Shown here piece by piece: positions 25,647-42,779 of a stretch of 42,952 nt of DNA. This DNA comes from a virus: positions 1 to 42,952 of the IMG/VR virus record IMGVR_UViG_3300036398_001959. One strand, written 5' to 3'. Each line of letters opens with the position of its first letter. Position 1 is the stretch's first letter. The notes below the pieces were generated by a model. It saw only the letters and a list, made by a program, of their open reading frames with translations, had not been told where the DNA came from and ran no database searches. Position numbers and translations under genes: made by a program.

Positions 25647-25671
25647 GAGTTTATAGTCTTAGGAGGCTTGT

Positions 25672-27593: not shown

Positions 27594-27875
27594 ATGAACC
27601 AGCACATTTGGAAAGACAACGCCTCATGTTCTGGATTTGAAACTAATTTATTTTTTGATAAATATGAAGATGATCCAACACTAAGAATAGCCGTAGACTC
27701 TATCTGCGCCTCATGCCCAGTAGCAAAAAAATGCTTTGCTAATGGTGTATCTGGTAAAGAGTGGGGAGTTTGGGGTGGAGTTTATATAGAGTCTGGAGAA
27801 ATATCCAGAGAGTTTAATAATCATAAAAGCAAGAGTGATTGGGCATATACATGGCAAATGTTAACGATGGACTAA
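27594..27875 (+). CDS. WhiB-like Fe-S transcription regulator
   Basis: 93 aa. Four cluster cysteines Cys12, Cys38, Cys41, Cys47 in the Wbl pattern C-xn-C-x2-C-x5-C (ICASCPVAKKC), followed by the GVWGG turn (58-62). Wbl proteins are confined to Actinobacteria and their phages. The basic C-terminal tail usual in host WhiB is short here (NNHKSKSDW). Likely alters host sigma-factor-dependent transcription, as described for mycobacteriophage WhiB proteins. Confidence 0.92.
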   Translation: MNQHIWKDNASCSGFETNLFFDKYEDDPTLRIAVDSICASCPVAKKCFANGVSGKEWGVWGGVYIESGEISREFNNHKSKSDWAYTWQMLTMD

Positions 27876-30696: not shown

Positions 30697-30731
30697 GGGG
30701 TCAGTCTAGAAATAGGCTGGCCCCACTTTTT
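30697..30731 (+). terminator. Rho-independent terminator
   Basis: GGGGTCAGTCT pairs with AGGCTGGCCCC (11 bp, with two G-U pairs) around a six-base loop, followed by ACTTTTT. Ends the 25.7-30.7 kb unit. Confidence 0.9.
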
Positions 30732-30732
30732 A

Positions 30733-30741
30733 TGATAGGAT
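30733..30741 (+). promoter_or_regulatory. Possible leaderless -10 before glycosyltransferase
   Basis: TGATAGGAT ends 6 bases before ATG 30748 and fits TGnTAnnnT. AGGA inside it could instead be a ribosome site 7 bases from the ATG, so the case is ambiguous. Confidence 0.35.
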
Positions 30742-30747
30742 ATACAC

Positions 30748-31446: not shown

Positions 31447-32918
31447 ACATATCCAGTCATGTCATACTTAGTTGCATTCTGAACAGTGGATCTTGTTGCA
31501 TATATATTACAGATGTTTCCTTTTTCCATCTTAATTGCATAAACATTTAATTTGTTGTGATAAAACAAGTAGTTATCAATGGGACTTTTTACATCCTTTT
31601 GAACTTCTTTTAACAACTTTTTCGCACCACTTTTGCTCACAACATAACACAAACAAGACCAAGACTGATAAACTTTGCACACATTCTCTTTATTAATAAA
31701 TAAACTTTCTTTATTTTTTTTATATCTAATATTACCCGTAGGTGGTGTGTATGCAGTAAATACATCCCAATCATCTGGTAACTCACCAATATACTTAACT
31801 AATTTATCATTAAAATTACTATTAAGAACAATGTCATCTTCCATTAAAACCATGTAATCGTAATCAGATTCAACAAAGTTTTGCCATGCGGTATAGTTAC
31901 TTGCCCAGATGCCTAGTTCTCCAGGCTTCCATCCATCTCCAAAGTGTCCTAGTGGATCTATTTTTAATTTAGAATCTTTATAGAATAACTTTACATCGTC
32001 AGTATTTTTAATAATTATTGTGGGGGTTTCTATTTTTTCAAAGGTTTCTTTAAGGGTTTTAGTTGCATTTTTGGTTAAAGAGTTTCTTTTTTCCATAAAC
32101 TTGCTTGGTGTCTCATCATGAAATATTACAAAACATCCCGATGGTTTAACAACTTTTGCTACTATTTCACTATTTAAATTAAAAAACATTTCTTTGGGGT
32201 AGGCTTTTGATTTTTTGCTCCACCAATAGTCTATGTTATTTTTTGATTGCATATGAAAATTACCGTGAGCAGAGTTAATAGAGTTTTTTGCATCAAGTAT
32301 ATGAGTAAACAGAGGCATTGAGTATGCATTTCCTAGAGCATATAGTATTACATCTGCTGCTTGATTATTGTGTCCGTAACTATCTAACTTATATTTTTTA
32401 TTAATGTAGTGTAGTTTAACCAAGGTTTTTGCATAACTTCTTTTAATTAAATAACAAGCAGTAGACCATTCGTAAGACATTTTTTTATGTGAATTAAACT
32501 TTTCTTTTTTGTGTAAATTAAAAGTAATAGGTTCATTCTTAATCATTATTAGTTGAACAATCTCTGCCCTTTGAGGTATCTGAGACTTCACATAGTCCCA
32601 ATCAAATGGCCAATGTTCAACGGTATCAAAACTAAAATCATCTTCCATAATAATTGCATACTCGCTATCAGATGTTTCAAGCCAGTGACTTAAAGCCTTA
32701 ATATGAGATGTCATACAGCCGATCTCTGATGATCTAAGTTTTGGATACTTACCTTCTATGATTTCAGACAGGTCGCTATTTCTACCGTCAACAGCCTCTA
32801 TAACTTCATAATCTGTTATTCCATATTTTTTAAATTGTTTTTTTGCATTGTCTAGTCGATGTGTATGATCTTTTATATTAATTAAATATACTGGCCCAAA
32901 GTTCTTTAACTTATCCAT
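31443..32918 (-). CDS. Tandem-domain GT25-like glycosyltransferase
   Basis: 491 aa with two glycosyltransferase domains. Domain 1 (about 1-215): VYLINIKDHTHRLDNAKKQF, YEVIEAVDGR, SEIGCMTSHIKAL and IIMEDDF (EDD at 92-94), the classical GT25/LPS glycosyltransferase order. Domain 2 (about 260-491): a divergent relative with GELGIWASNYTAWQNF and YMVLMEDDIVLN (EDD at 360-362). Gene fusion or internal duplication is likely. It starts 8 bases inside the end of the methyltransferase gene, so both are on one transcript. Confidence 0.85.
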   Translation of the reverse strand: MDKLKNFGPVYLINIKDHTHRLDNAKKQFKKYGITDYEVIEAVDGRNSDLSEIIEGKYPKLRSSEIGCMTSHIKALSHWLETSDSEYAIIMEDDFSFDTVEHWPFDWDYVKSQIPQRAEIVQLIMIKNEPITFNLHKKEKFNSHKKMSYEWSTACYLIKRSYAKTLVKLHYINKKYKLDSYGHNNQAADVILYALGNAYSMPLFTHILDAKNSINSAHGNFHMQSKNNIDYWWSKKSKAYPKEMFFNLNSEIVAKVVKPSGCFVIFHDETPSKFMEKRNSLTKNATKTLKETFEKIETPTIIIKNTDDVKLFYKDSKLKIDPLGHFGDGWKPGELGIWASNYTAWQNFVESDYDYMVLMEDDIVLNSNFNDKLVKYIGELPDDWDVFTAYTPPTGNIRYKKNKESLFINKENVCKVYQSWSCLCYVVSKSGAKKLLKEVQKDVKSPIDNYLFYHNKLNVYAIKMEKGNICNIYATRSTVQNATKYDMTGYV

Positions 32919-33486
32919 TTTTTGATATCCATACCTGATAATCCATAATGATTAGGCTGTATTGTTTTTTGTGTTGACTTAAGAACTTGTCTATACCTGG
33001 TTTTGGAGATAGGCTTTTTTCTTTAGATGAGTGTGTCCATTGATAATCATCAAAAGCCATTATTCCAAAAGGTTTTAGTTTATCCCATGAAAGGGTTGCA
33101 TCTTTGTAAACACCTTCTGCTGTGTGATCTCCATCAATATATATAAAATCGTAATGATTTTTCTCTGCTGTTTTTAGAAACTCATGAGAGTACCCTTTTA
33201 TCTTACATATGTTTGGATAAACAGACATGCGTTTATCATAAAAAGTTTCTAACTCATTCCAATCAAAACCCTTGTGTGCCTCTTCTTCTGAACCACACCA
33301 TGTGTCTACATCGGTCAACCAAGAAGAGTGATCTGTAAGTATATTATCTAACATCCACTCGGATGCGTCTCCTGTATATGCTCCTATTTGCAGAAAATCT
33401 ATAAGTGGCTTGCCTGCAAATCTTTTGGGGAGCACTAAATTAAAATAGTCAATAGCATTTTTTTCAAACCAGTTTGGATACCCCAT
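32911..33486 (-). CDS. Methyltransf_24-type SAM methyltransferase (minus copy)
   Basis: 191 aa from ATG 33486. PLIDFLQIGAYTGDASEWML is motif I and NHYDFIYIDGDHTAEGVYKD holds the hallmark YIDGDH; GIMAFDDYQW follows. Such enzymes often O-methylate sugars. The frame is open up to 33540, but the TATAAT box sits exactly 6 bases before ATG 33486, and the longer form would overlap the divergent gene, so 33486 is preferred. Confidence 0.85.
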   Translation of the reverse strand: MGYPNWFEKNAIDYFNLVLPKRFAGKPLIDFLQIGAYTGDASEWMLDNILTDHSSWLTDVDTWCGSEEEAHKGFDWNELETFYDKRMSVYPNICKIKGYSHEFLKTAEKNHYDFIYIDGDHTAEGVYKDATLSWDKLKPFGIMAFDDYQWTHSSKEKSLSPKPGIDKFLSQHKKQYSLIIMDYQVWISKNG

Positions 33487-33492
33487 ATATTT

Positions 33493-33498
33493 ATTATA
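33493..33498 (-). promoter_or_regulatory. Leaderless -10 for minus methyltransferase
   Basis: TATAAT on the minus strand, then AAATAT (6 bases), then ATG 33486; no ribosome site. It is divergent from the promoter at 33509-33517. Confidence 0.7.
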
Positions 33499-33508
33499 CC
33501 CTATCCTC

Positions 33509-33517
33509 TGATATACT
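33509..33517 (+). promoter_or_regulatory. Leaderless extended -10 for plus methyltransferase
   Basis: TGATATACT, 6 bases (GTATGT), then ATG 33524. No ribosome site. The two divergent start codons are only 37 bases apart. Confidence 0.75.
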
Positions 33518-33523
33518 GTATGT

Positions 33524-34105
33524 ATGCCTATTAAAACCATCTCACAACATCAGTTAAACAATGCTAAGTTATTTAGAAATAAAGAAGAGTATGCCAAGCA
33601 CATACCAAAAGGATCCAGAATCCTTGAAATAGGCACTCTTGCTGGTGATTATGCTGAAGTACTAATCAATGAGGTAGAACCTGCCTCTATCGACCTTATA
33701 GATGTGTTTGAGGCCCATGATTGGCCTGACTGTAATCGTTTTGATAAGCGTGGTCATTTTAAGTTTGTACAAAATAGATTTAAAAATGTAAAAAATATTA
33801 CATATCATAAGGGGTATAGCAACCTAATAATGCCAGGAATAGGCAAAGAGTTTGACTATATATATATTGATGCTAACCATGACTATGAGCACTGTAAGGG
33901 TGATCTAATGAATTCCCTGCCACTTTTGGCGGAAGGTGGAATAATTGGGTTTAATGATTATATAGTAGATCAAGACCATGGTGTTGACTATGGTGTTATT
34001 GAGGTGGTTTGTGAGTTTTTAAATGATAACCAAGACTGGGAAGTAGTAGGTTTTGCATTACAAGAAAATATGTATGCAGACATATATATTAAAAGGATTA
34101 GTTAG
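33524..34105 (+). CDS. Methyltransf_24-type SAM methyltransferase (plus copy)
   Basis: 193 aa. GSRILEIGTLAGDYAEVLIN is motif I; IDLIDVFE the acidic end of strand 2; FDYIYIDANHDYEHCKGDL the YIDxxH block; GGIIGFNDY follows. A diverged relative of the minus-strand neighbour. It is leaderless and its stop overlaps the next start (TTAGTG). Probably modifies the same glycan as the flanking glycosyltransferases. Confidence 0.85.
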   Translation: MPIKTISQHQLNNAKLFRNKEEYAKHIPKGSRILEIGTLAGDYAEVLINEVEPASIDLIDVFEAHDWPDCNRFDKRGHFKFVQNRFKNVKNITYHKGYSNLIMPGIGKEFDYIYIDANHDYEHCKGDLMNSLPLLAEGGIIGFNDYIVDQDHGVDYGVIEVVCEFLNDNQDWEVVGFALQENMYADIYIKRIS

Positions 34106-34824
34106 TGGATTTTGTTTACATATGTAGGGCTGGAGATAATGAGGAACTAAGATACTCAATTAGGTCAGTGGTACATAGTTTCCCAGAAGCCCGTATCTGG
34201 GTCGTAGGAGGCAAGCCAGACTGGTATACAGGGCATTATATAGAGGTCTACCAAACAGGAAGCAAGTACACTAATGCGATTAATAATCTTAATGCTGCCT
34301 GTAGTTCACAAAACATATCAGATACCTTTGTATTAATGAACGATGATTTTTTTATATTAAAAAGTGTTACATCAATTAAAAATTTTTATAGCGGATCATT
34401 ACAAGATAAGATAGATAAGTATATAAAGATTAGTGGACACACAGCGTACATTAGAAAATTAATATCAACAAATAATAAACTTAGTTCAAGCGGTATTGAC
34501 AACCCTTTAGATTATGAACTACATGTGCCAATGATTATGGAAAAAAATAAACTACATTTTATATTAGATAAGTATCCAACCTATTTATGGAGATCTGTTT
34601 ACGGAAATTTATACAAAGTTGGAGGGGACATTGCTGAAGATGTAAAAATTTATAGCAATAATAGATATAATGGCAGATCAAAATCAACAACAGATGACTC
34701 TACTTTTATATCAACAGAAGATAAATCTTTTAATATGATTAAAGATAAAATAATTAAGTTATTTCCAAACCCATCTATTTATGAGTCCCCTTGGCAGGAA
34801 TCGAACCTGCGACACCAGGCTTAG
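34105..34824 (+). CDS. Stealth-like sugar-phosphate transferase whose end lies antisense in a tRNA
   Basis: 239 aa, GTG start with AAAGGATT upstream. DFVYICRAGDNEELRYSIRS and FVLMNDDFFILKSV (near residue 72-85) match Stealth/capsule phosphotransferase conserved regions 1 and 2; HVPMIMEKNKLHFIL follows as in region 3. Transfers a sugar-phosphate or sugar to a surface polymer. No stop codon occurs before the convergent tRNA-Arg, so the last 13 residues (SPWQESNLRHQA region) are read from the complement of the tRNA 3' half. Confidence 0.75.
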   Translation: MDFVYICRAGDNEELRYSIRSVVHSFPEARIWVVGGKPDWYTGHYIEVYQTGSKYTNAINNLNAACSSQNISDTFVLMNDDFFILKSVTSIKNFYSGSLQDKIDKYIKISGHTAYIRKLISTNNKLSSSGIDNPLDYELHVPMIMEKNKLHFILDKYPTYLWRSVYGNLYKVGGDIAEDVKIYSNNRYNGRSKSTTDDSTFISTEDKSFNMIKDKIIKLFPNPSIYESPWQESNLRHQA

Positions 34825-34858
34825 AAGTCCTGTGTTCTATCCACTGAACTACAAAGGG
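34786..34858 (-). tRNA. tRNA-Arg (anticodon TCT)
   Basis: Acceptor CCCTTTG/CAAGGGG with discriminator A, D arm GTTC/GAAC, anticodon loop CTTCTAA (TCT), T arm GCAGG-TTCGATT-CCTGC. CCA is not encoded (CTC). Reads AGA, a codon used very often here. Last tRNA of the minus-strand cluster. Confidence 0.95.
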
Positions 34859-34862
34859 TTGG

Positions 34863-34933
34863 AGCGACTAGCGAGAATCGAACTCACACATTAACCTTGG
34901 CAAGGTTACGCACTACCACTATGCAATAGTCGC
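34863..34933 (-). tRNA. tRNA-Gly (anticodon GCC)
   Basis: Acceptor GCGACTA/TAGTCGC, discriminator T, anticodon stem TAACC/GGTTA with loop TTGCCAA (GCC). CCA is encoded immediately after (34862-34860), leaving one base before tRNA-Arg. Confidence 0.95.
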
Positions 34934-34937
34934 TTGG

Positions 34938-35010
34938 CTGGGGATGCAGGCATCGATCCTGCGACATCCGAATTAACAGTTCGGCACTCTACCATCTGAG
35001 TTAATCCCCA
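34938..35010 (-). tRNA. tRNA-Asn (anticodon GTT)
   Basis: Acceptor TGGGGAT/ATCCCCA, discriminator G, D arm ACTC/GAGT, anticodon stem CCGAA/TTCGG with loop CTGTTAA (GTT). CCA is encoded (34937-34935). Confidence 0.95.
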
Positions 35011-35014
35011 TTAG

Positions 35015-35088
35015 TACACCAGGTAGGACTTGAACCTACGATAACCGAATTATGAGTTCGGGGCCTTAACCAACTTGGCTACTGGTGT
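35015..35088 (-). tRNA. tRNA-Met (anticodon CAT)
   Basis: Acceptor ACACCAG/CTGGTGT with discriminator A, anticodon stem CCGAA/TTCGG with loop CTCATAA (CAT), T arm GTAGG-TTCAAGT-CCTAC. The paired A1-T72 argues against an initiator; it could be elongator Met or a lysidine-modified Ile tRNA. First tRNA of the cluster. Confidence 0.92.
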
Positions 35089-35249
35089 GTATTAATAGTA
35101 TATCCATTACTCTCTAAATCGTCAACTATTGCATTAACAATTTTAGTATAGTCTATATCCATAATAAAATGGTTTTCTATTTTATGCATATTGATTGATG
35201 TAGGACCAACCTTTTGCAAAGAATTTGCAATAACCTCTTTATACGACAT
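35079..35249 (-). CDS. Small protein, 56 aa, ending in tRNA-Met
   Basis: KVGPTSINMHKIENHFIMDI and YTKIVNAIVDDLESNGYTI suggest a small alpha/beta protein. The start overlaps the upstream nuclease-like gene; the stop codon TAG is formed by the first bases of the tRNA-Met gene (acceptor end), an overlap of 10 bases. Unrecognised. Confidence 0.6.
   Translation of the reverse strand: MSYKEVIANSLQKVGPTSINMHKIENHFIMDIDYTKIVNAIVDDLESNGYTINTHQ
35097..35125 (-). promoter_or_regulatory. Promoter for the tRNA cluster
   Basis: On the minus strand TTGACG (35125-35120), a 17-base spacer and TATACT (35102-35097); transcription would start within a few bases of the tRNA-Met 5' end at 35088. It lies inside the 56-aa gene at 35079-35249. 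Confidence 0.8.
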
Positions 35250-35634
35250 AATCTATATATCTTACTTCATCAATAATTTTATTTTTTAGTGCAGTTCTAA
35301 TCATTTTATCAGAGTAAGATCCTGGATCTGGTTTTGCAGAAAAATAAACAACATACTTAAGAGTATGAGATAATTTAATTAATGCACCATTAGCAATTGC
35401 TTTCTTAACATTGTCTGTTCTTTTGGCACCAGGCCTCTTGTTATCTCCATCTTTACCACCCTTGCACTCTACATATTCAAAGGTTTCTCCATGAGCCCTA
35501 AAGTCTACTTCACACCCAATATTTTCAAACACATAGTTTTTATCTATCTTTGTAAATCCACGACTAACCAAATCAACATACACTATGCTTTCAAACTCAT
35601 CGCCACTTTTTTTGGATTCAGACTGAAAATTCAT
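35239..35634 (-). CDS. PD-(D/E)XK endonuclease-like protein
   Basis: 131 aa. SGDEFESIVYVDLVSRGFTK (Glu13/Glu15), GCEVDFRAHGE (Asp44) and FEYVECKGGKDGDN (Glu56-x-Lys58) give the full E-D-ExK order, followed by a basic helix KRPGAKRTDNVKKA. Likely a small DNA endonuclease or Holliday-junction enzyme. ATG 35634 lies just after the upstream stop; a TTG at 35646 would extend it by four residues. Confidence 0.7.
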   Translation of the reverse strand: MNFQSESKKSGDEFESIVYVDLVSRGFTKIDKNYVFENIGCEVDFRAHGETFEYVECKGGKDGDNKRPGAKRTDNVKKAIANGALIKLSHTLKYVVYFSAKPDPGSYSDKMIRTALKNKIIDEVRYIDYVV

Positions 35635-35635
35635 T

Positions 35636-35722
35636 CTACTGCTCAACCTTATATGTCATAGCAATATAGCATGCAACATATCCCATAATGAATGATGGTA
35701 TTAAAAATAAAACATGTATCAT
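35636..35722 (-). CDS. Membrane micro-protein, 28 aa
   Basis: ATGA overlap with the upstream stop. A single hydrophobic helix (VLFLIPSFIMGYVACYIAM) with a charged tail (TYKVEQ). Its stop is two bases from the next ATG. Coding status rests on position in the coupled operon. Confidence 0.45.
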   Translation of the reverse strand: MIHVLFLIPSFIMGYVACYIAMTYKVEQ

Positions 35723-35943
35723 ATGTTTACCCCCTCATCTTTTTTCCAATGGACAAAAGATTTAATATATACAATACCATATGCAATAGCAGCAACTATA
35801 AATCCATATTGATTAGTAGCAAGGGCATAGGCAATCCATAGACATTCATTGACACATAAAACTAGCCATCCCCATATAGTCTTACGACCTACAAGAAATA
35901 TTCCTGCAACACCAATGGCTGCTAATATCCAAGACCACCACAT
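35719..35943 (-). CDS. Membrane protein, PnuC-like fragment, 74 aa
   Basis: Three hydrophobic segments: WSWILAAIGVAGIFLVG, WGWLVLCVNECLWIAYALAT and FIVAAIAYGIVYI, with GRKTIWGW between the first two as in PnuC-type transporters, and a basic/acidic tail. Short homologues of this kind are common in phages. Transport function is doubtful because half of a full carrier is missing. Confidence 0.65.
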   Translation of the reverse strand: MWWSWILAAIGVAGIFLVGRKTIWGWLVLCVNECLWIAYALATNQYGFIVAAIAYGIVYIKSFVHWKKDEGVNI

Positions 35944-35945
35944 GT

Positions 35946-36110
35946 CTATATACCTGCAATTATCGCTAAGAGAAAGCCAATAATCAAACCACCAAAACCA
36001 AATACCATATGGTATGACTTTTGATAATGATCAATAATGATTTCATGCACGATATCTTTAGGTATGTTGGTGTACTTATCGTTACCATTGTCAACCTTAT
36101 ACTGTTTCAT
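35946..36110 (-). CDS. Single-helix membrane protein, 54 aa
   Basis: A soluble N-terminal half (NIPKDIVHEIIIDHYQK) and one C-terminal membrane helix (MVFGFGGLIIGFLLAIIAGI). TAATG overlap with the upstream gene. Unknown function. Confidence 0.6.
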   Translation of the reverse strand: MKQYKVDNGNDKYTNIPKDIVHEIIIDHYQKSYHMVFGFGGLIIGFLLAIIAGI

Positions 36111-36250
36111 TACTGTACCACATCTACTGGAATCATCATTTCACATTTATAACAATAGTAGTACCTTGAGCCAGTAAATGGGCATGAACCAGCAGGCTCA
36201 AGTGAATGACCCCTTAACTTACAGACAGTTCTTTTAATTAGATGAATCAT
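36110..36250 (-). CDS. DUF1660-like zinc protein, 46 aa
   Basis: VCKLRGHSLEPAGSCPFTGS then YYYCYKC matches the DUF1660 phage family order C-K/R-L-x-GH, CxFTG, CxxC. Four cysteines and His14 can bind zinc. It overlaps both neighbours. Confidence 0.7.
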   Translation of the reverse strand: MIHLIKRTVCKLRGHSLEPAGSCPFTGSRYYYCYKCEMMIPVDVVQ

Positions 36251-36494
36251 CTGATGCTCCCTTACCTAGTCCATGGTGCTCTAATTCATGTTTACCCCAT
36301 GCAATTGCTGCACAAATGTCAAATGCCTTTTGAGTTCGGCGGGACTTATTTAAACCATTAGTCTTCCAAAGATCTGAGGTAGCAAGAATGTCAATTGCTA
36401 TATCATTTCTAATCTCTTTAACTGTATAAACAATAAAGTTCCATACCTGAGCCTTTTGCTCATCAGTTAAATCTTTAGTCCAGTCCTCACTCAT
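36234..36494 (-). CDS. Helical protein, 86 aa
   Basis: Acidic N-terminus (SEDWTKDLTDEQKAQVWNF) followed by helices and TQKAFDICAAIAWGKHELEH; polar tail. AAGG lies 6 bases before ATG 36494 whereas ATG 36500 is too close. Unrecognised. Confidence 0.65.
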   Translation of the reverse strand: MSEDWTKDLTDEQKAQVWNFIVYTVKEIRNDIAIDILATSDLWKTNGLNKSRRTQKAFDICAAIAWGKHELEHHGLGKGASDDSSN

Positions 36495-36606
36495 CATCAT
36501 CCTTTTTTAATGTATCTTTTGGAACCCAAACCTTTTTACCATCTTTGTATACTGGCCAATAGTTAAGACTACGCCAGTCCATCTTCATAATTTTAGGTTC
36601 GTTCAT
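36487..36606 (-). CDS. Micro-protein, 39 aa
   Basis: GAGGTGGGG precedes ATG 36606. MDWRSLNYWPVYKDGKKVWV reads like a short beta-strand domain; acidic end (KKDDDE). Overlaps the next start. Unrecognised. Confidence 0.55.
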   Translation of the reverse strand: MNEPKIMKMDWRSLNYWPVYKDGKKVWVPKDTLKKDDDE

Positions 36607-36624
36607 GCCCCACCTCTTTTAGTT

Positions 36625-36783
36625 TTATTCAAACTGAGATTTTAAGAATCCTTTAATGTCTTCATAAATTCCGCTAATCCATGCATGCTGAATGTCACCT
36701 TCTGGAACATTGTTTGCTGCCAACACATCAACCTTACGCTGTTCGATAAGTTCAATAACCTTATCCATATCTTCTTTTGTCAT
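36625..36783 (-). CDS. Small helical protein, 52 aa, first gene of the minus operon
   Basis: GGGGA 6 bases upstream of ATG 36783 and a strong promoter further up. DMDKVIELIEQRKVDVLAAN and IYEDIKGFLKSQFE indicate two helices. Unknown function; heads the operon that runs to 35079. Confidence 0.65.
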   Translation of the reverse strand: MTKEDMDKVIELIEQRKVDVLAANNVPEGDIQHAWISGIYEDIKGFLKSQFE

Positions 36784-36820
36784 TTATTTCCCCATTCTTT
36801 TTAGATATTATTACTATTAC

Positions 36821-36850
36821 ATTATACACTTGAATGAACTACAGTGTCAA
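36821..36850 (-). promoter_or_regulatory. Consensus promoter of the minus-strand small-gene operon
   Basis: TTGACA (36850-36845), 18-base spacer, TATAAT (36826-36821) on the minus strand. The 36784-36902 stretch otherwise shows nothing recognisable. Confidence 0.85.
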
Positions 36851-36902
36851 GCCTAGTCCCACTCTATATTGTTTATGCTTAGCCAATCGAGATAGTTGAT
36901 GA

Positions 36903-37001
36903 TCATTTTTCATCTACTAAGTACTCAAAGACATCGCTAACTACTTTATCAATGTCCGCAGGGTACATAAACTCCAACTGACACACCCTACAATCACACA
37001 T
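36903..37001 (-). CDS. Leaderless Cys-rich micro-protein, 32 aa
   Basis: MCDCRVCQLEFMYP gives Cys2, Cys4 and Cys7 at the very N-terminus, then DIDKVVSDVFEYLVDEK, a helix. Driven by a near-consensus promoter with the -10 six bases from the ATG. Possibly the remnant of a longer zinc-finger protein. Confidence 0.5.
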   Translation of the reverse strand: MCDCRVCQLEFMYPADIDKVVSDVFEYLVDEK

Positions 37002-37007
37002 CTATCT

Positions 37008-37036
37008 AGTATATACCATATACAGTCAAAGGTCAA
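37008..37036 (-). promoter_or_regulatory. Leaderless promoter for 36903-37001
   Basis: TTGACC (37036-37031), 17-base spacer, TATACT (37013-37008), 6 bases (AGATAG), ATG 37001. The -35 overlaps the stop codon of the luciferase-like gene. Confidence 0.75.
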
Positions 37037-37809
37037 GCAATTAGGTGTTTATTATTTTTAACAAAGTCTACTATGCGCCTGTACTCTTCATCAGATCCAT
37101 TAACATGAAACATTACATCATTTATTCCATCACTCTTTAAACTATTTAAAATATCTATAAGACCATTAGAATCAGCAAATACAGCATCTTGTGGTATATT
37201 TCCTTGATTTTTTAATACATTAATTTCTTTTAGTGTGCTTCTAATAAAAGGGCACATCGTAACAATCTTTGGCTTAGAAATTTTTTTAAATTTATTTTCA
37301 TGAATATGCTTATCATAAGATGTCATGTTGTAGTCTGCATATTTTTCTGTTAGATTAAATATTTCATCGCTCATACCAGAAACGCATATTGCTGGAGGCT
37401 TCATAATATTTTTGCAGTATTCTATAAATACTGGAACATAATCTATAAGATATTGTTTTCTTTCTAAAAAATGAGATGAATCATTTACATCACCAATTAC
37501 TCCACCAAGAGACTGTTCGTAATCATTTACTGTTCCAGCAACAAAGTTAATCCAAACTCTATCATCATCTATCTCATTTAATGATTTAACTATAGATGCT
37601 AAATATTGCGGGGATATAGTGTAAGGCCTAATAGCAACTATATACTTTAACTTATGGCTAGTATCTATAGACCTAGCAATGAATGTAAAATAATCACCTA
37701 GGCTAGATCCATATGGCAAAAGTATGCCTGTAAACCCAGCGTCTTCTAACTCTTGTGATACTTTGGGAAGTGTAGTTGCATTAGCACTATCAAATAGGTA
37801 TATATTCAT
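37033..37809 (-). CDS. Mini luciferase-like monooxygenase (LLM/SsuD family), copy 3
   Basis: 258 aa and the clearest of the three. AGFTGILLPYGSS, LKYIVAIRPYTISPQYLASI, DRVWINFVAGTVNDYEQSLG and LERKQYLIDYVPVF align block by block with SsuD ([62 protein letters not shown]). DEIFNLTEKYADYNMTSYD matches DVAQELAAEQVDLYLTW, and the last 40 residues match the final barrel unit. The insertion loops of SsuD are missing. ATGA overlap with the upstream zinc micro-gene indicates coupling; there is no ribosome site. Confidence 0.75.
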   Translation of the reverse strand: MNIYLFDSANATTLPKVSQELEDAGFTGILLPYGSSLGDYFTFIARSIDTSHKLKYIVAIRPYTISPQYLASIVKSLNEIDDDRVWINFVAGTVNDYEQSLGGVIGDVNDSSHFLERKQYLIDYVPVFIEYCKNIMKPPAICVSGMSDEIFNLTEKYADYNMTSYDKHIHENKFKKISKPKIVTMCPFIRSTLKEINVLKNQGNIPQDAVFADSNGLIDILNSLKSDGINDVMFHVNGSDEEYRRIVDFVKNNKHLIA

Positions 37810-37910
37810 TTAATAAAATATGTTGTATAACAGTTTGCACAATAGATGGCATTGCCTTTAGCCTGACTAGCATTAGGCTGATCACAAACAGAACACTTAA
37901 TTCCCGTCAC
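37806..37910 (-). CDS. Zinc-ribbon micro-protein, 34 aa
   Basis: Cys6-x2-Cys9 (KCSVCDQ) and Cys24-x2-Cys27 (YCANCYTTYF) form a complete minimal zinc ribbon. GTG start overlaps the upstream TGA (GTGA) and the stop overlaps the luciferase-like gene (ATGA). Confidence 0.6.
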   Translation of the reverse strand: MTGIKCSVCDQPNASQAKGNAIYCANCYTTYFIK

Positions 37911-38041
37911 GCAGATAACCCCATCAGCAGATGTCTTTTGCATACACCAGATACAATATATTTGGACTCACCAACAGTTACGACTTGATCGTACTCTGCT
38001 TGGAGGTCGCAAAAATTACATTTTTCTAGTTGATTGGACAT
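37907..38041 (-). CDS. Leaderless zinc-finger protein, 44 aa
   Basis: Cys8-x2-Cys11 (EKCNFCDLQAEY) and Cys34-x2-His37 with SGVCKRHLLMG, similar in layout to the DUF7455-type protein (C-x2-C then C-x-x-H). First gene of the three-gene operon ending with luciferase-like copy 3. Confidence 0.65.
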   Translation of the reverse strand: MSNQLEKCNFCDLQAEYDQVVTVGESKYIVSGVCKRHLLMGLSA

Positions 38042-38047
38042 ATAAAA

Positions 38048-38056
38048 ATTATAGCA
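38048..38056 (-). promoter_or_regulatory. Leaderless extended -10 for the zinc/luciferase-like operon
   Basis: TGCTATAAT on the minus strand, 6 bases (TTTTAT), ATG 38041. Divergent from the promoter at 38069. Confidence 0.75.
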
Positions 38057-38068
38057 CATTCAGGTCAG

Positions 38069-38077
38069 TGGTATAAT
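38069..38077 (+). promoter_or_regulatory. Leaderless extended -10 for 2OG oxygenase
   Basis: TGGTATAAT, 6 bases (TAAAGA), ATG 38084. The divergent ATGs are 42 bases apart. Confidence 0.75.
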
Positions 38078-38083
38078 TAAAGA

Positions 38084-38713
38084 ATGGGTATATCTAAAAT
38101 AAATAATGTATTTGCTGATGAAGAATTATCACTTATTGATAGCATTATTAATAATAAATACATACCAAGAACCGAAACTGGTGAGTATATTGCATTTGAC
38201 TGGGAGTTTCATGCTGGAATAGATAATAATCTTGGAAGACTCCAGTTTAATCTATCAGATCATTTTAAAAATCCCAACACATCCATCAATCAAAGGCTAT
38301 TGGATATTGCATCAGAAGCCTTTTACTCTGACTGCCAACTTCCCTGGTCGATTAATAATGTACTATATGCAGAGTATAGTGGTAAGTACGGCATGCCCAA
38401 CCTTCCACCGCATTTTGATGGGGAGATAAGTGATATCATAATTAACTATCAGTTTACTTCTAATACATCTTGGGACATAGGTATAGGCACAGACTTATAT
38501 AAACTAGAAAACAATTCGGCAATAGTCTTTAATGCCAACGAGCATATCCACTGGAGACCACATAAGACTTTTAGTAACGATGAGTATGTTAAGATGATAT
38601 TTTTTAGGTTTTTTACTAATCCGCCAACAGATTATTCGCACAAGACTTTATCACAAGATAACGAAGTGTTTAAAGATGCTATCGCTATTAGAGATAGGCT
38701 AATTCAGGATTAA
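38084..38713 (+). CDS. 2OG-Fe(II) oxygenase-like protein (paralogue B)
   Basis: 209 aa. Ligands His110-x-Asp112 (PPHFDG) and His156 in EHIHWRPH; SNTSWDIGIG between them. Same residue numbers, length and motif order as the product of 4034-4672, so the two are paralogues although 34 kb apart. Convergent 4-base overlap with the sulfotransferase-like gene. Leaderless start. Substrate unknown. Confidence 0.65.
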   Translation: MGISKINNVFADEELSLIDSIINNKYIPRTETGEYIAFDWEFHAGIDNNLGRLQFNLSDHFKNPNTSINQRLLDIASEAFYSDCQLPWSINNVLYAEYSGKYGMPNLPPHFDGEISDIIINYQFTSNTSWDIGIGTDLYKLENNSAIVFNANEHIHWRPHKTFSNDEYVKMIFFRFFTNPPTDYSHKTLSQDNEVFKDAIAIRDRLIQD

Positions 38714-39261
38714 AAATTGCCTTGTATGTACGATCTTATTTCAAAGCCTAGGTATTTTTCTATAGCATCTAACTCAGTCTTATCTATGAATAAACCCTCA
38801 TAAGTAAATTGCTCAATGTTAAATGATTTTATTTCTGATTGTATTTTTTTAACATCTTCAAGTTGCTCTTCATACTTATCTGAGATAATCTTTTTATACT
38901 CTTCCTCAGAAAGTTTATGTGCTTTTTGACCTTTACGCCATGAGTTAAAGTGACTTGCTACAAGATAACTTTTAGTAGTCTCTTCTGTATTATTTCTTGT
39001 CAAACCAATAACCTTATCAAACATTGAAAATAGTGTATTTGGATCCGATAACTCTTCCATACGATAAAACCAATTGCCAACTATCTTTACAACTATATTA
39101 TCTGTATCTTTAAGAAGTTTATAATCATCAGCAAGGGTAGAGCCAGTTGTAGGGCTATCCCTAAATGGCTCATTTATAATCATTAAATCTGAACTATATC
39201 CTATAGCCCTTAGTAGGCTTGTTGACCCAGACCTTGCTTGCGCTACAATTAAAACCTTCAA
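38710..39261 (-). CDS. Sulfotransferase-like P-loop protein
   Basis: 183 aa from TTG 39261. KVLIVAQARSGSTSLLRAIG is the PAPS-binding 5' P-loop region (x-x-x-RSGST) of sulfotransferases; KVIGLTRNNTEETTKSYLVA resembles the 3'-phosphate block (xxLxRNP/NxEE), where Arg and the following Ser would contact PAPS. Likely sulfates a glycan. The start overlaps the upstream micro-ORF stop (TTGA); a longer TTG 39273 start has no ribosome site. Confidence 0.75.
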   Translation of the reverse strand: MKVLIVAQARSGSTSLLRAIGYSSDLMIINEPFRDSPTTGSTLADDYKLLKDTDNIVVKIVGNWFYRMEELSDPNTLFSMFDKVIGLTRNNTEETTKSYLVASHFNSWRKGQKAHKLSEEEYKKIISDKYEEQLEDVKKIQSEIKSFNIEQFTYEGLFIDKTELDAIEKYLGFEIRSYIQGNF

Positions 39262-39332
39262 CTCGCACACCAAATATTGTTATCACTCATGGTTTGGTGG
39301 CTTTCCCAAAATAGTGGGTCTTTCTTTGACAT
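39258..39332 (-). CDS. Possible micro-protein, 24 aa
   Basis: MSKKDPLFWESHQTMSDN begins after GTGCGGG and ends with WCAS at a TGA overlapping the sulfotransferase TTG. Coding status is tentative and rests on the stop-start overlap. Confidence 0.4.
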   Translation of the reverse strand: MSKKDPLFWESHQTMSDNNIWCAS

Positions 39333-39354
39333 CCCGCACTTTTTGCATTCGTTC

Positions 39355-39471
39355 TTATTCAAAGTCTACCTGGCTTTCAAAGATATCTGGCTTAGTCTCC
39401 ATAGCACCGCAGGTAGCACAAGTAACCTGACCATCTAGGTCTAGGCTAAAATCACAACTATGAGTATTCAT
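39355..39471 (-). CDS. Leaderless Cys-containing protein, 38 aa
   Basis: HSCDFSLDLDGQVTCATCGA gives Cys6, Cys18 and Cys21, a partial zinc-binding pattern that His4 could complete; the acidic end is DIFESQVDFE. First gene of the sulfotransferase unit, with a consensus promoter. Confidence 0.6.
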   Translation of the reverse strand: MNTHSCDFSLDLDGQVTCATCGAMETKPDIFESQVDFE

Positions 39472-39477
39472 GTATCA

Positions 39478-39506
39478 ACTATACCATTATCATCCCTAAA
39501 TGTCAA
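39478..39506 (-). promoter_or_regulatory. Leaderless promoter for 39355-39471
   Basis: TTGACA (39506-39501), 17-base spacer, TGGTATAGT (TATAGT 39483-39478), 6 bases (TGATAC), ATG 39471. Confidence 0.8.
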
Positions 39507-39512
39507 AATTAA

Positions 39513-39521
39513 TGATATAAT
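39513..39521 (+). promoter_or_regulatory. Leaderless extended -10 for 39528 gene
   Basis: TGATATAAT, 6 bases (GATCTT), ATG 39528. No ribosome site. Confidence 0.7.
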
Positions 39522-39527
39522 GATCTT

Positions 39528-39920
39528 ATGACTAATTCAATTGTAAATGCAGGAACAATAACAGGCTCAGGAAACATTATGGGAAATGCTGGAGCAACAT
39601 TTTCTAGAACCTTAAGCATATCAACCGTTAATCTTAATGATGTTGGCTATGACGCAGAATTTACTAACAATACAATGTTCTTTAATAATTCTTTCCCTCC
39701 ATACTTAACAGATTATATGCCAGAAAGCACTCCACTTCTAATAACAGTTAGCGGACTTATCGGTGATAGTATAGCAATGAATGGTCAGACATTTACAGTT
39801 ATGAGAGTAAACCAGACAATTGTTGACGTATCTGGATTTGCTGCTTTTATTAGTACACATGGCCTTAATGGAACTCATGCTTACGAAAAGTATGATCATA
39901 CATGGAACTGGAACTCCTAA
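39528..39920 (+). CDS. Short beta-rich virion-like protein, 130 aa
   Basis: The N-terminus NAGTITGSGNIMGNAGATFS is Gly/Asn-rich and followed by beta-strand patterns (LLITVSGLIGDSIAMNG, TFTVMRVNQTIVDVSG) as in fibre or decoration proteins. The ITGSG motif recurs at the end of the 40528 protein. Followed after 9 bases by the third 2OG oxygenase. A tail-fibre accessory role is inferred. Confidence 0.6.
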   Translation: MTNSIVNAGTITGSGNIMGNAGATFSRTLSISTVNLNDVGYDAEFTNNTMFFNNSFPPYLTDYMPESTPLLITVSGLIGDSIAMNGQTFTVMRVNQTIVDVSGFAAFISTHGLNGTHAYEKYDHTWNWNS

Positions 39921-39929
39921 AGGATAAAG

Positions 39930-40508
39930 TTGTTTATCTATGATGATAACTTTTTAAGTTTAGATCAGATTCTTGAAGTAAGCCAAGCAGTAACAAAAAA
40001 TAATAAAAATATTATTTGGCATACCCTTGAAAATACAAGCGGTATACGCCAATATCTAAAGTTAAAAAATAATAATATAACGGTATCAGAAGATAAGCAA
40101 CACTCTCATGCAGCATCTTTTAATAACAAAAAGATGTCAGATATCCATGAAATTGGCAGCAATATCCTAAACACTTTTGCTAAAAAACACGGGATAGAGG
40201 TAAAAGAAACTTTAAGAATTAAGGCAAACATCTTAAATAAAACAGATAAACAAGATCATATACACCCACCCCATGTAGATATGACCACACCACATATGGT
40301 TTTATTATACTATGTAAATGACTCAGATGGGGATACAATAATCTTTCATCAAAAGCACTCATCTGATCAAGACCCAGTACTTACGGTTAACAGGTCAATC
40401 TCTCCAAAGGCTGGATCAGCAATAATGTTTGATGGTTTGACTTATCACTCATCATCTTCCCCTCAATATACAGAAGAAAGAATAGTAATCAATATTAATT
40501 TCATTTAA
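39930..40508 (+). CDS. 2OG-Fe(II) oxygenase (third copy, prolyl-hydroxylase-like)
   Basis: 192 aa. DHIHPPHVDM contains His115-x-Asp117, MFDGLTYHSS the distal His173, and EERIVININF Arg184, the 2-oxoglutarate-binding arginine: the complete HxD...H...R set. VLLYYVNDSDGDTIIFH is the typical strand between. TTG start with AAAGGAT 5 bases upstream. The setting among virion-like genes, including a collagen-like repeat protein, raises the idea of proline hydroxylation of that protein; unproven. Confidence 0.8.
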   Translation: MFIYDDNFLSLDQILEVSQAVTKNNKNIIWHTLENTSGIRQYLKLKNNNITVSEDKQHSHAASFNNKKMSDIHEIGSNILNTFAKKHGIEVKETLRIKANILNKTDKQDHIHPPHVDMTTPHMVLLYYVNDSDGDTIIFHQKHSSDQDPVLTVNRSISPKAGSAIMFDGLTYHSSSSPQYTEERIVININFI

Positions 40509-40512
40509 AATA

Positions 40513-40521
40513 TGATACAAT
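40513..40521 (+). promoter_or_regulatory. Leaderless extended -10 for 40528 gene
   Basis: TGATACAAT, 6 bases (AGTTTT), ATG 40528. Confidence 0.65.
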
Positions 40522-40527
40522 AGTTTT

Positions 40528-40764
40528 ATGGCATTTCCACCAAATTATCAAGGCCTTTATAATAACGGAGTATCCTATCCACTTGGAGCAACCGTTCTCA
40601 CAGATGGCAACCCATACGGAATTAACGGAGCATATTACATCAGAGTTACAAATGGTGGAAACCCAGGATATGCTCCAGGATATACAGACAATTGGGAAAT
40701 ATACACCATGCCTAAAGGTATAGACGGCGCTGGATCAATTACAGGTTCAGGCGAAATCTCTTAA
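40528..40764 (+). CDS. Small carbohydrate-binding/tail-type protein, 78 aa
   Basis: FPPNYQGLYNNGVSYPLGAT followed by YYIRVTNGGNPGYAPGYTDN and WEIYT resembles the small ~50-residue binding modules (YxxGxxY...W) seen at ends of phage fibre and chitinase-type proteins. The end GAGSITGSGEIS repeats ITGSG of the 39528 protein. Likely a virion or adhesion component. Confidence 0.6.
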   Translation: MAFPPNYQGLYNNGVSYPLGATVLTDGNPYGINGAYYIRVTNGGNPGYAPGYTDNWEIYTMPKGIDGAGSITGSGEIS

Positions 40765-40776
40765 TATACTTTATAA

Positions 40777-40785
40777 TGGTATAAT
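40777..40785 (+). promoter_or_regulatory. Leaderless extended -10 for collagen-like gene
   Basis: TGGTATAAT, 6 bases (GTTTAA), GTG 40792. A second TATAAT at 40772-40777 overlaps upstream. Confidence 0.7.
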
Positions 40786-40791
40786 GTTTAA

Positions 40792-41667
40792 GTGACTGTC
40801 AGAACTATCGAGTACCTTTTAAATAAATTTGGAGCGGGTAAATCTCCAGGATCTTCGGAATATGTTGATCTTATTGATACCCTTGCCGATGATAGAAATG
40901 CTGTGTATTTTTCAGCAACTGCCCCAGAAGATACTGGTGCTAATCCTGTTTGGTTTAATACCAGCACAAATGTGCTAAGTGTATATGATGGCGAGTGGAT
41001 TACAGCAGGTGGTGCTGAAGGTCCCCAAGGTCCCCAAGGTATACAGGGTGAAACTGGGGCAACAGGTGCTACAGGGGCAACAGGCAGTGCAGGAGCAACT
41101 GGTCCGCAAGGACCTGCTGGCGGAATAATGGCTCTTCCAATGTATTCTGGATCATGGTACAGAACACAAAATCCTAACAATTCTTCTAACAATTTTACAT
41201 TAAACAGAACTTATTTTTCTCCTATATATATACCAACAACTACAACAGTTGATAGAATTGCAGCAAGAACCCATACAAACTCGCCTGGAACTTCTGTTAT
41301 AAGGTTAGGAATATATAATTCTGACTCTAGTGGAAAACCATCAACTGTTCTGTTGGATGCTGGCACTGTAACTGTAACCGCAACTTCAACTACATATCCA
41401 ATTACAATTTCTCAATCACTTTCAGCAGGTTTTTATTGGCTTGCTTTAAATATTCAGTCTTCAACTCTTGCAAATGTTCCTCTAAATGGAACAGGAAACA
41501 CCTATTCAGTCAATCCCTTGTTAGGTGGAATCGGAGATATATCATATACCAATGGTATTGTTCAAGGATTTCAAATACCAACCTTAGATGTTTCAGGTGG
41601 TTTTACCACAGCGTCATCTCTTACTACTACTACTGCAATTCCATATGTCCAGATTAGGGCATTGTGA
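40792..41667 (+). CDS. Collagen-like fibre protein
   Basis: 291 aa from GTG. N-terminal domain about 1-75 with RTIEYLLNKFGAGKSPGSSE (a phage neck-binding-like start) and NPVWFNTSTNVLSVYDGEW; then about 11 Gly-x-y triplets (GPQGPQGIQGETGATGATGA) forming a trimeric collagen-like stalk; then a beta-rich receptor-binding C-terminal domain of about 180 residues (IRLGIYNSDSSGKPSTVLLD; LSAGFYWLALNI). Typical minor tail fibre plan. Leaderless. Confidence 0.85.
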   Translation: MTVRTIEYLLNKFGAGKSPGSSEYVDLIDTLADDRNAVYFSATAPEDTGANPVWFNTSTNVLSVYDGEWITAGGAEGPQGPQGIQGETGATGATGATGSAGATGPQGPAGGIMALPMYSGSWYRTQNPNNSSNNFTLNRTYFSPIYIPTTTTVDRIAARTHTNSPGTSVIRLGIYNSDSSGKPSTVLLDAGTVTVTATSTTYPITISQSLSAGFYWLALNIQSSTLANVPLNGTGNTYSVNPLLGGIGDISYTNGIVQGFQIPTLDVSGGFTTASSLTTTTAIPYVQIRAL

Positions 41668-41677
41668 TTTTTTATTT

Positions 41678-41760
41678 TAGGCGGGTAAGTTCGGCGCAAA
41701 ATAGAGTTAATAAACCCACCTAAGCCCGACACGGGCTATATCGGTTAATATCCACCTAAG
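41678..41760. other. Structured convergent intergenic region
   Basis: TAGGCGGGT (41678-41686) can pair with ACCCACCTA (41714-41722, one mismatch), and AGCCCG-ACA-CGGGCT (41723-41737) is a perfect 6-bp hairpin. CCACCTAAG occurs twice (41717-41725 and 41752-41760). Between convergent operons, it may be a bidirectional terminator, though no T-run directly follows the hairpin on either strand. Confidence 0.45.
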
Positions 41761-41948
41761 CACACATTCCTAGTATGATATAGCCTGCTGCTTATCAAAG
41801 TTTTGCGGGATGGAGCATAGATAACCTCATCACAAGGACAATGCCAAGACCATTCCTTACCAAAGAAGTCATATACTGCACCCTTGGCATTAGCATACTT
41901 CTTGGTTACAAAGGTTTGGAATGGATCTGGGATTTCTAGGTTAATCAT
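41745..41948 (-). CDS. Small protein with CPC motif, 67 aa
   Basis: IPDPFQTFVTKKYANAKGAV, then SWHCPCDEVIYAPSRKTLIS and a final Cys near the C-terminus. Last gene of the right-hand minus operon, overlapping the preceding gene. Similar small CPC proteins occur in actinophages as I recall; function unknown. Confidence 0.6.
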   Translation of the reverse strand: MINLEIPDPFQTFVTKKYANAKGAVYDFFGKEWSWHCPCDEVIYAPSRKTLISSRLYHTRNVCLGGY

Positions 41949-42144
41949 TTATATTAGATACCTCAACAGGAAATACATATTTTGTTTTATTCTGTATAGC
42001 AGCAGAAATCCTTCTTCCACCAACCTTCATAACAGGCTTAGACTTCATAGGCTTACGCTTGCCTTTGATTTTTCTTCCTTGCCTATGCATATTTCTTGTG
42101 GTAGAAAGTTGTGTAACAAATAGGTTGGGCTCTGTGTTTGTCAT
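41941..42144 (-). CDS. Very basic small protein, 67 aa
   Basis: MHRQGRKIKGKRKPMKSKPV and KVGGRRISAAIQNKTK give a strong positive charge; probably nucleic-acid-binding. Overlaps both neighbours. No family recognised. Confidence 0.6.
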   Translation of the reverse strand: MTNTEPNLFVTQLSTTRNMHRQGRKIKGKRKPMKSKPVMKVGGRRISAAIQNKTKYVFPVEVSNIND

Positions 42145-42401
42145 TTATTACATCCAAGATGCCTAGTCTTTTTATTATTCTTATTCCAAAGAATCTCTGT
42201 GCCAGCCTTAATACCACTATTACAGACAAAGCATGTGCCATTATACTGACTTACAATCTTGACCCATTTAGGACCTTTAATGCTTTCTTTGGGCAGCGCC
42301 TTAAGTTCTTTCTTTCTGGCTGGGGTTAGAATGTTTCCATCGCCATCATATTTTACCCTATTAAACTTATTGTTCTTAGTTCTGACCTGTCTGATAGACA
42401 T
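42141..42401 (-). CDS. Basic zinc-binding protein, 86 aa
   Basis: Basic N-terminal half (ARKKELKALPKESIKGPKWV) then CFVCNSGIKAGTEILWNK and a TRHLGCNK end: Cys-x2-Cys...His-x2-Cys as in small phage zinc fingers that recall PARP-type or HNH-associated zinc domains. No nuclease motif seen. Confidence 0.65.
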   Translation of the reverse strand: MSIRQVRTKNNKFNRVKYDGDGNILTPARKKELKALPKESIKGPKWVKIVSQYNGTCFVCNSGIKAGTEILWNKNNKKTRHLGCNK

Positions 42402-42407
42402 ACAAAC

Positions 42408-42545
42408 CTATCTCTCGATCATGATCCAGACCCAGAATAGGTCTAGGTTTATGGAATAGCGCTCAATGCTAAAGCCTAGCCCAAAGCGCTTGAAGGAACC
42501 ACCGTAGTGGACCCATGTGTTCTTTATCTTAACTTCCTTATACAT
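42408..42545 (-). CDS. Conserved small phage protein, 45 aa
   Basis: TWVHYGGSFKRFGLGFSIER followed by INLDLFWVWIMIE alternates beta strands; this short aromatic protein type is frequent in actinophages and marine phages as I recall. Starts 8 bases inside the upstream gene. Confidence 0.6.
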   Translation of the reverse strand: MYKEVKIKNTWVHYGGSFKRFGLGFSIERYSINLDLFWVWIMIER

Positions 42546-42744
42546 TTACCAACTCCTTCTCAATAGCCTCAATGGTCGGGCATGGATAAAGCCAGCCATC
42601 ACAGGCAATACAGTTGCTTCCCCACTCACCATTAGGCAGGGTAATCTCTTGCTCTTTATGTAACTCTACTACTGCTAGCAAGGCCATATATGTACTGGTA
42701 TGACCAGACCACTCGATAGTTCTTAGTAGTTTATTATGGTCCAT
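42538..42744 (-). CDS. Conserved small phage protein, 68 aa, leaderless
   Basis: TYMALLAVVELHKEQEI, then SNCIACDGWLYPCPTIEAIE: Cys-x2-Cys...Cys near the C-terminus with the YPCPTIxAI ending seen in many actinophage small proteins as I recall. First gene of the right-hand minus operon; consensus promoter with no leader. Confidence 0.7.
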   Translation of the reverse strand: MDHNKLLRTIEWSGHTSTYMALLAVVELHKEQEITLPNGEWGSNCIACDGWLYPCPTIEAIEKELVNV

Positions 42745-42750
42745 ATATAC

Positions 42751-42779
42751 AGCATATCAAATTTTGCGGGGGAAGTCAA
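42751..42779 (-). promoter_or_regulatory. Leaderless promoter of the right-hand minus operon
   Basis: TTGACT (42779-42774), 17-base spacer, TGATATGCT (TATGCT 42756-42751), 6 bases (GTATAT), ATG 42744. The -35 sits just beyond the stop codon of the next upstream gene. Confidence 0.8.

Follow-up and report, generated by a model that had tools for sequence, protein, structure and literature searches.

A -10 box six nucleotides ahead of the start codon points to leaderless genes in a probable freshwater actinophage lineage

The virus record IMGVR_UViG_3300036398_001959, a stretch of 42,952 bp that is referred to in its entirety as the window, carries a set of twelve genes at which a -10 promoter hexamer lies directly ahead of the start codon, so that their mRNAs would probably lack a leader. 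Rightward, tightly packed genes occupy 1-31 kb and encode a DNA polymerase, a UvsX-like recombinase, a Cas4-like exonuclease, a RuvC-like resolvase and the large terminase, as well as a tape-measure-like protein, an HslV-like peptidase, a carbamoyltransferase and an endolysin. Strand changes are frequent in 31-43 kb, which holds genes for a family-25 glycosyltransferase and two Methyltransf_24 proteins, four tRNAs and many small open reading frames (ORFs), together with luciferase-like, 2OG-oxygenase-like and collagen-repeat matches below the Pfam cut-off. No phage nearly identical to 18000-42952 was found in the annotated phage collection. The twelve genes are listed below, where N6 stands for six nucleotides (nt), "leaderless" for a prediction from the start geometry, and a sign after a start coordinate, here and in the text, for its strand.

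32911-33486, minus strand: Methyltransf_24 protein, leaderless; TATAAT at 33493-33498, N6, ATG
33524-34105, plus strand: second Methyltransf_24 protein, leaderless; TGATATACT, hexamer at 33512-33517, N6, ATG; 37-nt gap to the divergent 33486-
37907-38041, minus strand: small Cys-containing ORF of 44 amino acids, leaderless; TGCTATAAT, N6, ATG
38084-38713, plus strand: 209-amino-acid gene without Pfam match, leaderless; TGGTATAAT, N6, ATG; 42-nt gap to the divergent 38041-
39355-39471, minus strand: Cys-containing ORF of 38 amino acids, probably leaderless; TGG then TATAGT, TTGACA-17 upstream, N6, ATG
39528-39920, plus strand: 130-amino-acid gene without Pfam match, leaderless; TGATATAAT, N6, ATG; 56-nt gap to the divergent 39471-
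40528-40764, plus strand: 78-amino-acid gene without Pfam match, leaderless; TGATACAAT, N6, ATG
40792-41667, plus strand: collagen-repeat (fibre-like) protein, below the Pfam cut-off, leaderless; TGGTATAAT, N6, GTG
36903-37001, minus strand: 32-amino-acid ORF, possibly leaderless; TTGACC-17-TATACT, N6, ATG
42538-42744, minus strand: 68-amino-acid ORF, possibly leaderless; TTGACT-17-TATGCT, TGA ahead of the hexamer, N6, ATG
17294-17476, plus strand: leaderless gene outside the segment; TTGACG-17-TATAAT, N6, ATG
24291-24515, plus strand: DUF7455 protein; TATACT, N6, ATG; an extra in-frame ATG right behind the hexamer

All twelve starts show the -10 hexamer, the six intervening nucleotides and the ATG (GTG at 40792) that a first-pass annotation had reported, and its further observations of a TGn ahead of the hexamer at eight of the twelve (the extended -10) and of a TTGACN -35 element 17 nt upstream of the hexamer at 17294, 37001, 39471 and 42744 were likewise reproduced, while its count of nine starts in 33.4-42.8 kb was corrected to ten of twelve. 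The claim that no ribosome site precedes these starts holds in the sense that, if transcription starts about 7 nt past the hexamer, a 6-nt gap leaves the mRNA no room for a Shine-Dalgarno site; the AAGG ahead of 17294 sits upstream of the presumed transcription start. At each of the twelve, the hexamer conforms to TANNNT and begins about 12 bp ahead of the start codon, as described for the TA-led genes discussed below. Support is uneven from start to start, and 37001- and 42744- are among the weakest. A thirteenth candidate had been overlooked:

30748-31446, plus strand: thirteenth candidate; TGATAGGAT, N6, ATG; terminator-like hairpin at 30697-30724 just upstream

This geometry is present in six of the seven genomes introduced below and absent in L003, L015 and G9. 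The hairpin, of 12 pairs, ends 23 nt ahead of the start codon, and TGATAGGAT-N6-ATG begins in its T-rich tail, so that terminator, promoter and start codon are tightly packed at 30697-30748, the promoter-start part being the one common to the six genomes.

The frequency of the geometry was compared with chance in 200 dinucleotide shuffles of 33.4-42.8 kb, counting both strands and trying six patterns. TATAAT-N6-RTG was observed 6 times (0.92 in shuffled sequence), [GT]GNTATNNT-N6-RTG 8 times (0.84) and TATANT-N6 10 times (2.43), and in none of the 200 shuffles were the respective observed numbers reached. The loose TANNNT-N6-RTG, of the kind that the first-pass annotation had proposed to scan, did not discriminate (22 vs 21.5), so that the excess concerns the sharp motifs. 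The same test on 1-30.7 kb gave a significant excess for none of the six patterns.

A comparison with related phages, also proposed at the outset, bore out the preference for this spacing. Six of twelve phage records were used, and together with the window they make up seven contigs (the window, G1, G2, G4, G6, G7 and G9), of which the 114-kb G4 is the largest relative. In five of the six contigs outside the discovery set, a spacing of 6 nt was the most frequent of 0-19 for [GT]GNTATNNT (G1 13, G2 15, G4 16, G7 21 and G9 11, the second-best spacing in G9 reaching 10); G6 was weak, with 5 at spacing 6 and 6 at another spacing. A TANNNT at 6 nt precedes 88 starts in the seven contigs; these starts represent 46 protein clusters and yield the logo TG-R-TATAMT, although some of them are chance matches, such as 30237+, whose orthologues lack the motif. 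Genes were called with a small custom script, and the version of it that uses start signals, and by this favors leaderless counts, underlies the split of -10 distances, the set of 88 starts and 46 clusters, the G4 modules, the window split, the junctions and the divergent and co-directional heads. Repeats free of such signals cover the peak of -10 distances, the spacing in two of the three host parts described below, the heads of phages E7 and F5 and the runs test. In several window counts, including those of divergent junctions and of divergent and co-directional heads, 37001- and 38041- were added by hand.

In six phage contigs, the extended -10 boxes that lie 0-64 nt ahead of called starts fall into two groups by distance. 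For starts without a Shine-Dalgarno match, 43 of 72 boxes lie at 6 nt, followed by 6 at 7, 2 at 8 and 4 at 9 nt, and none lies at 12-23 nt; for starts with such a match, 33 of 75 boxes lie at 19-33 nt and 4 at 6 nt, with the rest scattered and a second rise near 50-55 nt. One random window within each longer gene, taken as a control, gave 7 boxes for all distances together, and the peak at 6 nt remained when starts were chosen without signals. Leaderless starts do not have a promoter motif of their own: the identical extended -10 also stands ahead of leadered Shine-Dalgarno genes. Examples of leadered starts in the window are the following.

25638-25674, plus strand: leadered contrast, start 25672+; TGCTATAAT, 25 nt with AGGAGG, ATG
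22973-23010, plus strand: leadered contrast, endolysin gene 23008+; TGGTATACT, 26 nt with AGGAGG, ATG
36781-36850, minus strand: leadered contrast within the segment, small-ORF series, start 36783-; TTGACA-18-TATAAT, leader of about 31 nt

The first two belong to the group at 19-33 nt. The promoter at 36850-36821 (minus strand) is perfect (12 of 12 consensus bases) and yet leadered, inside the leaderless-rich segment, and genes that closely follow another gene within the segment retain Shine-Dalgarno sites (e.g., 34105+ and 39930+). The two modes can also replace each other at one gene: 25672+ is leadered in the window, whereas its orthologues in G2, G4 and G7, with N-termini that align within two residues, carry TGATATAAT-N6-ATG and are called leaderless. 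Both kinds of start are mixed in 3 of 62 protein clusters.

Conservation was followed start by start in homologues, allowing the best start to lie up to 8 codons from the aligned one. It is most extensive at the divergent methyltransferase junction, as the opposed -10 boxes of 33486- and 33524+ persist in all 18 loci related to the 33524+ methyltransferase (L002-L019). TGATATA[AC]T-N6-ATG stands on the 33524+ side in each of the 18, with eight different N6 among 11 distinct 48-mers when the window is counted, while the 33486- side has TATAAT with 6 nt in the window and L002 and with 7 nt in the other 17 loci, so that a spacing of "exactly 6" is accurate for the window and L002 and too strict for the family. 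The opposed boxes sit 10-12 nt apart, which would presumably leave hardly any room for two polymerases at a time. The products of the two genes are distant paralogues (both Methyltransf_24, with cross-matches of about 25-34% identity). Elsewhere, TATAAT/TATGAT-N6-ATG precedes all four listed homologues of 38041- (38-55% identity), and the single listed homologue of 38084+ (G2, 39%) carries TGCTATAAT-N6-ATG. TTGAC, -10 box and N6-ATG are common to 17294+ in the window, G1, G2, G4 and G6, with the start codon several residues upstream of the aligned position in G2, G4 and G6. For 24291+, the geometry recurs in two of six listed homologues (N6 in L002 and G1), and 9 nt separate the box from the chosen ATG in G6, G7, G2 and L013. 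For 42744-, neither of the two homologues listed, in G1 and G6, has the geometry; no homologue of 37001-, 39471-, 39528+ or 40528+ was found in the relatives searched, and 40792+ gave only repeat-region matches that do not cover the N-terminus.

The distribution of these starts is tied to gene orientation. Across the seven contigs, leaderless starts account for 38 of 61 divergent heads and for 27 of 217 co-directional ones; as the latter were defined by gaps of at least 25 nt and may lack a promoter, the comparison was repeated on genes with an extended -10 and gave 27/29 and 32/80 (P = 5e-7), and collapsing the orientation test to 62 protein clusters gave P = 0.004. Within the window, 1-33 kb contains no divergent head and the remainder seven, six of them leaderless, whereas co-directional heads are leaderless in 1 of 16 cases in 1-33 kb and in 2 of 6 in the remainder. 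The window has three divergent junctions, counting the one with 38041-, which was added by hand; their gaps measure 37, 42 and 56 nt, and each junction is leaderless on both sides. The same applies to 11 of the 12 divergent junctions shorter than 57 nt in the seven contigs, the exception being two genes that overlap at the end of G2; six of these 11 are one and the same methyltransferase junction. Many leaderless genes thus lie in the segment because the strand changes often there, and its leaderless character goes largely with the orientation and compactness of its genes.

The window likely derives from a virus of freshwater actinobacteria, as suggested by a WhiB gene (27609-27782), by the polymerase and terminase and by a PstS protein in G4. 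The DNA polymerase is nearest to Streptomyces phages (58% to BillNye, Stanwilliamsviridae), as is the terminase (55%, to phages of about 131 kb). An acI probe retrieved 17 stretches, several of which are named Planktophila or LanE43 and one of which is labelled Omnitrophota. Parts of three Nanopelagicales genomes were scanned, namely the initial 400 kb each of P. versatilis and LanE43 and a 360-kb portion of a single SCGC AAA044-N04 contig. TANNNT peaks there at 6 nt ahead of starts, with 7 nt in second place (49 and 20 of 235, 52 and 12 of 221, and 27 and 19 of 182 heads), over a background of about 1-2.3 per spacing. With this looser TANNNT, the orientation effect is seen in this likely host order as well (leaderless at 125 of 324 divergent versus 54 of 319 co-directional heads). 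The G4 PstS gene (L029:9219-10343, minus strand) itself starts with TATACT-N6-ATG, and its product shares 55% identity with the P. versatilis protein, which scored 425 bits in a comparison in which 110 of 296 genomes matched and the second-best one reached 79 bits; these genomes are unlabelled and may or may not include other Nanopelagicales, so that the match supports the host order without proving it. A limited literature search found no paper on leaderless genes in Nanopelagicales.

Geometry, excess over chance and conservation make leaderless mRNAs very likely at these starts, and it can be proposed with good confidence that the window set consists of leaderless genes read by the host RNA polymerase with its primary sigma factor. 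According to this proposal, which rests on DNA sequence, the polymerase would recognize TGnTATAMT, an extended -10 that is in some cases accompanied by a TTGACN -35, and begin transcription about 7 nt past the hexamer, where the start codon has its first base. The mRNA would then begin with AUG or GUG, and ribosomes would load without a Shine-Dalgarno sequence. One promoter type would be joined to start codons in two ways, either at 6-7 nt, giving a leaderless mRNA, or farther away (the broad peak at about 19-33 nt), giving a leader with a Shine-Dalgarno site, and leaderless starts would prevail at very short divergent gaps, where there is little room for leaders.

Several observations weigh against this proposal. 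The phage hexamer is TATAMT with TG, whereas that of the host parts is TAG[AG]CT with less TG, a mismatch which could mean that the host or the sigma factor is misassigned, and TGNTATAATN6ATG has no occurrence in six host genomes. In two isolated phages of Planktophila, E7 and F5, a peak is not clearly discernible among the few heads (15 and 17), with a single head at 6 nt and another at 7. Hosts of this order need not bring the leaderless habit, and these small numbers hint that it is a feature of this phage lineage and not of every phage of such hosts. The counts depend on the custom gene caller, and the relatives share ancestry, so that pooled P values are too small. Finally, the modes are sharply split by region within the window when 17294+ and 24291+, which have no extended element, are left out: eight leaderless and no leadered starts face none and five (P = 0.0008), and a runs test on the window alone gives P = 0.002.

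Two alternatives concern what the geometry is. A chance origin, with TATAAT-like hexamers falling near ATGs in AT-rich DNA, would account for the shuffle-level frequency of the loose motif and for calls such as 30237+, but is scarcely credible for the set, where the excess of sharp motifs, the specificity for one spacing, its repetition in relatives and its conservation contradict it; single starts such as 37001- and 42744- may be of this kind. A tentative case can be made for very short leaders, in which spacings of 6-9 nt would correspond to leaders of 0-3 nt. The 7 nt at 33486- in 17 of the 18 related loci and some G4 starts at 7-9 nt are in line with this, but 6 nt clearly dominates among starts without a Shine-Dalgarno match.

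The other alternatives concern what leaderless starts are for. The split in the window speaks for the suggestion that leaderless genes are expressed at another stage of infection through changed ribosome behavior, which the first-pass annotation had framed as a temporal class opposed to a Shine-Dalgarno half, and the accessory region of G4 that matches the segment (84-98.5 kb) is likewise enriched, with 7 of 16 heads leaderless versus 6 of 51 elsewhere (P = 0.009). Moreover, initiation factors, the initiator tRNA and a disputed route through MazF are reviewed as regulators of leaderless translation, which they have been described to shift (PMC9031893). Nevertheless, G4 does not repeat the split: the runs test detects no blocks there (P = 0.79), and gives P = 0.051 for the seven contigs pooled. 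Each of the six modules defined in G4 holds at least one leaderless start, and genes with such starts in G4 include those for a baseplate-like protein, a 2OG oxygenase and PstS. The identical extended -10 of leaderless and leadered genes, the change of mode at 25672+ and the part of the segment's excess that is explained by divergence also speak against a temporal or translational switch, which is improbable, and the notion of a temporal class is not upheld. Two phage-encoded factors that might have served it were considered and discarded. All seven genomes encode a tRNA-Met(cat), which is presumably not an initiator, since it can pair at position 1 and has no GGG/CCC in the anticodon stem, and a search for the sigma factor domain Sigma70_r4, to which the sigma search was confined, found none in nine of nine phage records. 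An unlikely, though somewhat less improbable, idea is that promoter and ATG form the smallest autonomous unit, so that newly gained accessory genes would be leaderless as portable cassettes. In the window, several leaderless genes are accessory by annotation, and G4 homologues exist for 4 of 11 leaderless versus 46 of 61 other genes (P = 0.03), but no difference remains when five contigs are pooled (32/52 versus 241/349, P = 0.34). It would be a long shot to regard leader length as an evolvable expression setting, with orthologues flipping and leaderless genes staying translated when infection alters Shine-Dalgarno initiation; if true, this setting would constitute a translation-level class that is independent of promoter identity.

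The proposed leaderless genes have counterparts among known systems, which are compared here on the basis of the available part of each cited paper. In Actinobacteria, the -10 of TA-led genes is taken to be a TANNNT some 12 bp ahead of the start codon, which places the transcription start on that codon (PMC3160421). The position of TANNNT is the same at the window starts; TA-led genes are known from cellular, high-GC genomes with a loose TANNNT, in contrast to the near-consensus extended TATAMT of this phage lineage (PMC3160421). In Cluster O mycobacteriophages, PL1 and PR2 are predicted divergent SigA-like promoters in an AT-rich intergenic region with the +1 on the start codon, and a similar promoter, PL2, precedes the structural operon (PMC4351075). 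Head-to-head genes with a -10 about 6-7 nt ahead of each start are also what the window junctions exhibit, but three promoters were predicted in Cluster O, whereas up to 46 gene clusters are concerned in this lineage, with spacing and conservation tested (PMC4351075). The leaderless transcript predicted from P90 of mycobacteriophage Adephagia concerns a single gene, unlike the many-gene use in this lineage (PMC11373665), and lambda cI is one phage gene on a leaderless mRNA and does not represent a general start mode (PMC9031893). Bacterial bidirectional promoters are pseudo-symmetric sequences, whereas 33486/33524 has two separate -10 boxes and both genes would be leaderless (PMC12825309). The Streptomyces phage BillNye shows a TATANT peak at 6 nt (9 versus about 2 per spacing), with four of the nine sites being annotated starts (21510, 55686, 72437 and 84630); TANNNT over its heads is not in excess.

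The analysis would thus extend a known way of starting genes to an uncultured freshwater actinophage lineage, and it adds support at the level of sequence to the view that leaderless genes abound in streamlined freshwater Actinobacteria. Such starts may be misplaced or missed by gene finders geared to Shine-Dalgarno sites, and the two-peaked spacing offers a simple rule to find the heads of transcription units in uncultured actinophages. The leadered 25672+ and its leaderless orthologues lend themselves to a comparison of what a leader contributes in infection. Three of the twelve window genes are ORFs of 32-44 amino acids that are credible mainly through their promoter geometry. CxxC-like cysteine pairs occur in three leaderless ORFs (36903-37001, 37907-38041 and 39355-39471, of 32, 44 and 38 amino acids), which are possibly small metal-binding proteins.

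Two further observations concern neighboring genes. The HslV-like peptidase gene (16748-17278) has matches in 17 phage records, including those of E7 and F5; a kinship of 17294 with a BillNye leaderless gene behind a peptidase was considered and rejected, as the proteins look unrelated by eye. In the tRNA series, TTGACG-17-TATACT at 35088-35125 (minus strand) would let transcription begin about 2 nt 5' of the tRNA-Met end, and the promoter is similarly placed at the tRNA-Met of G9 and the tRNA-Arg of G4, while the other tRNAs printed differ.

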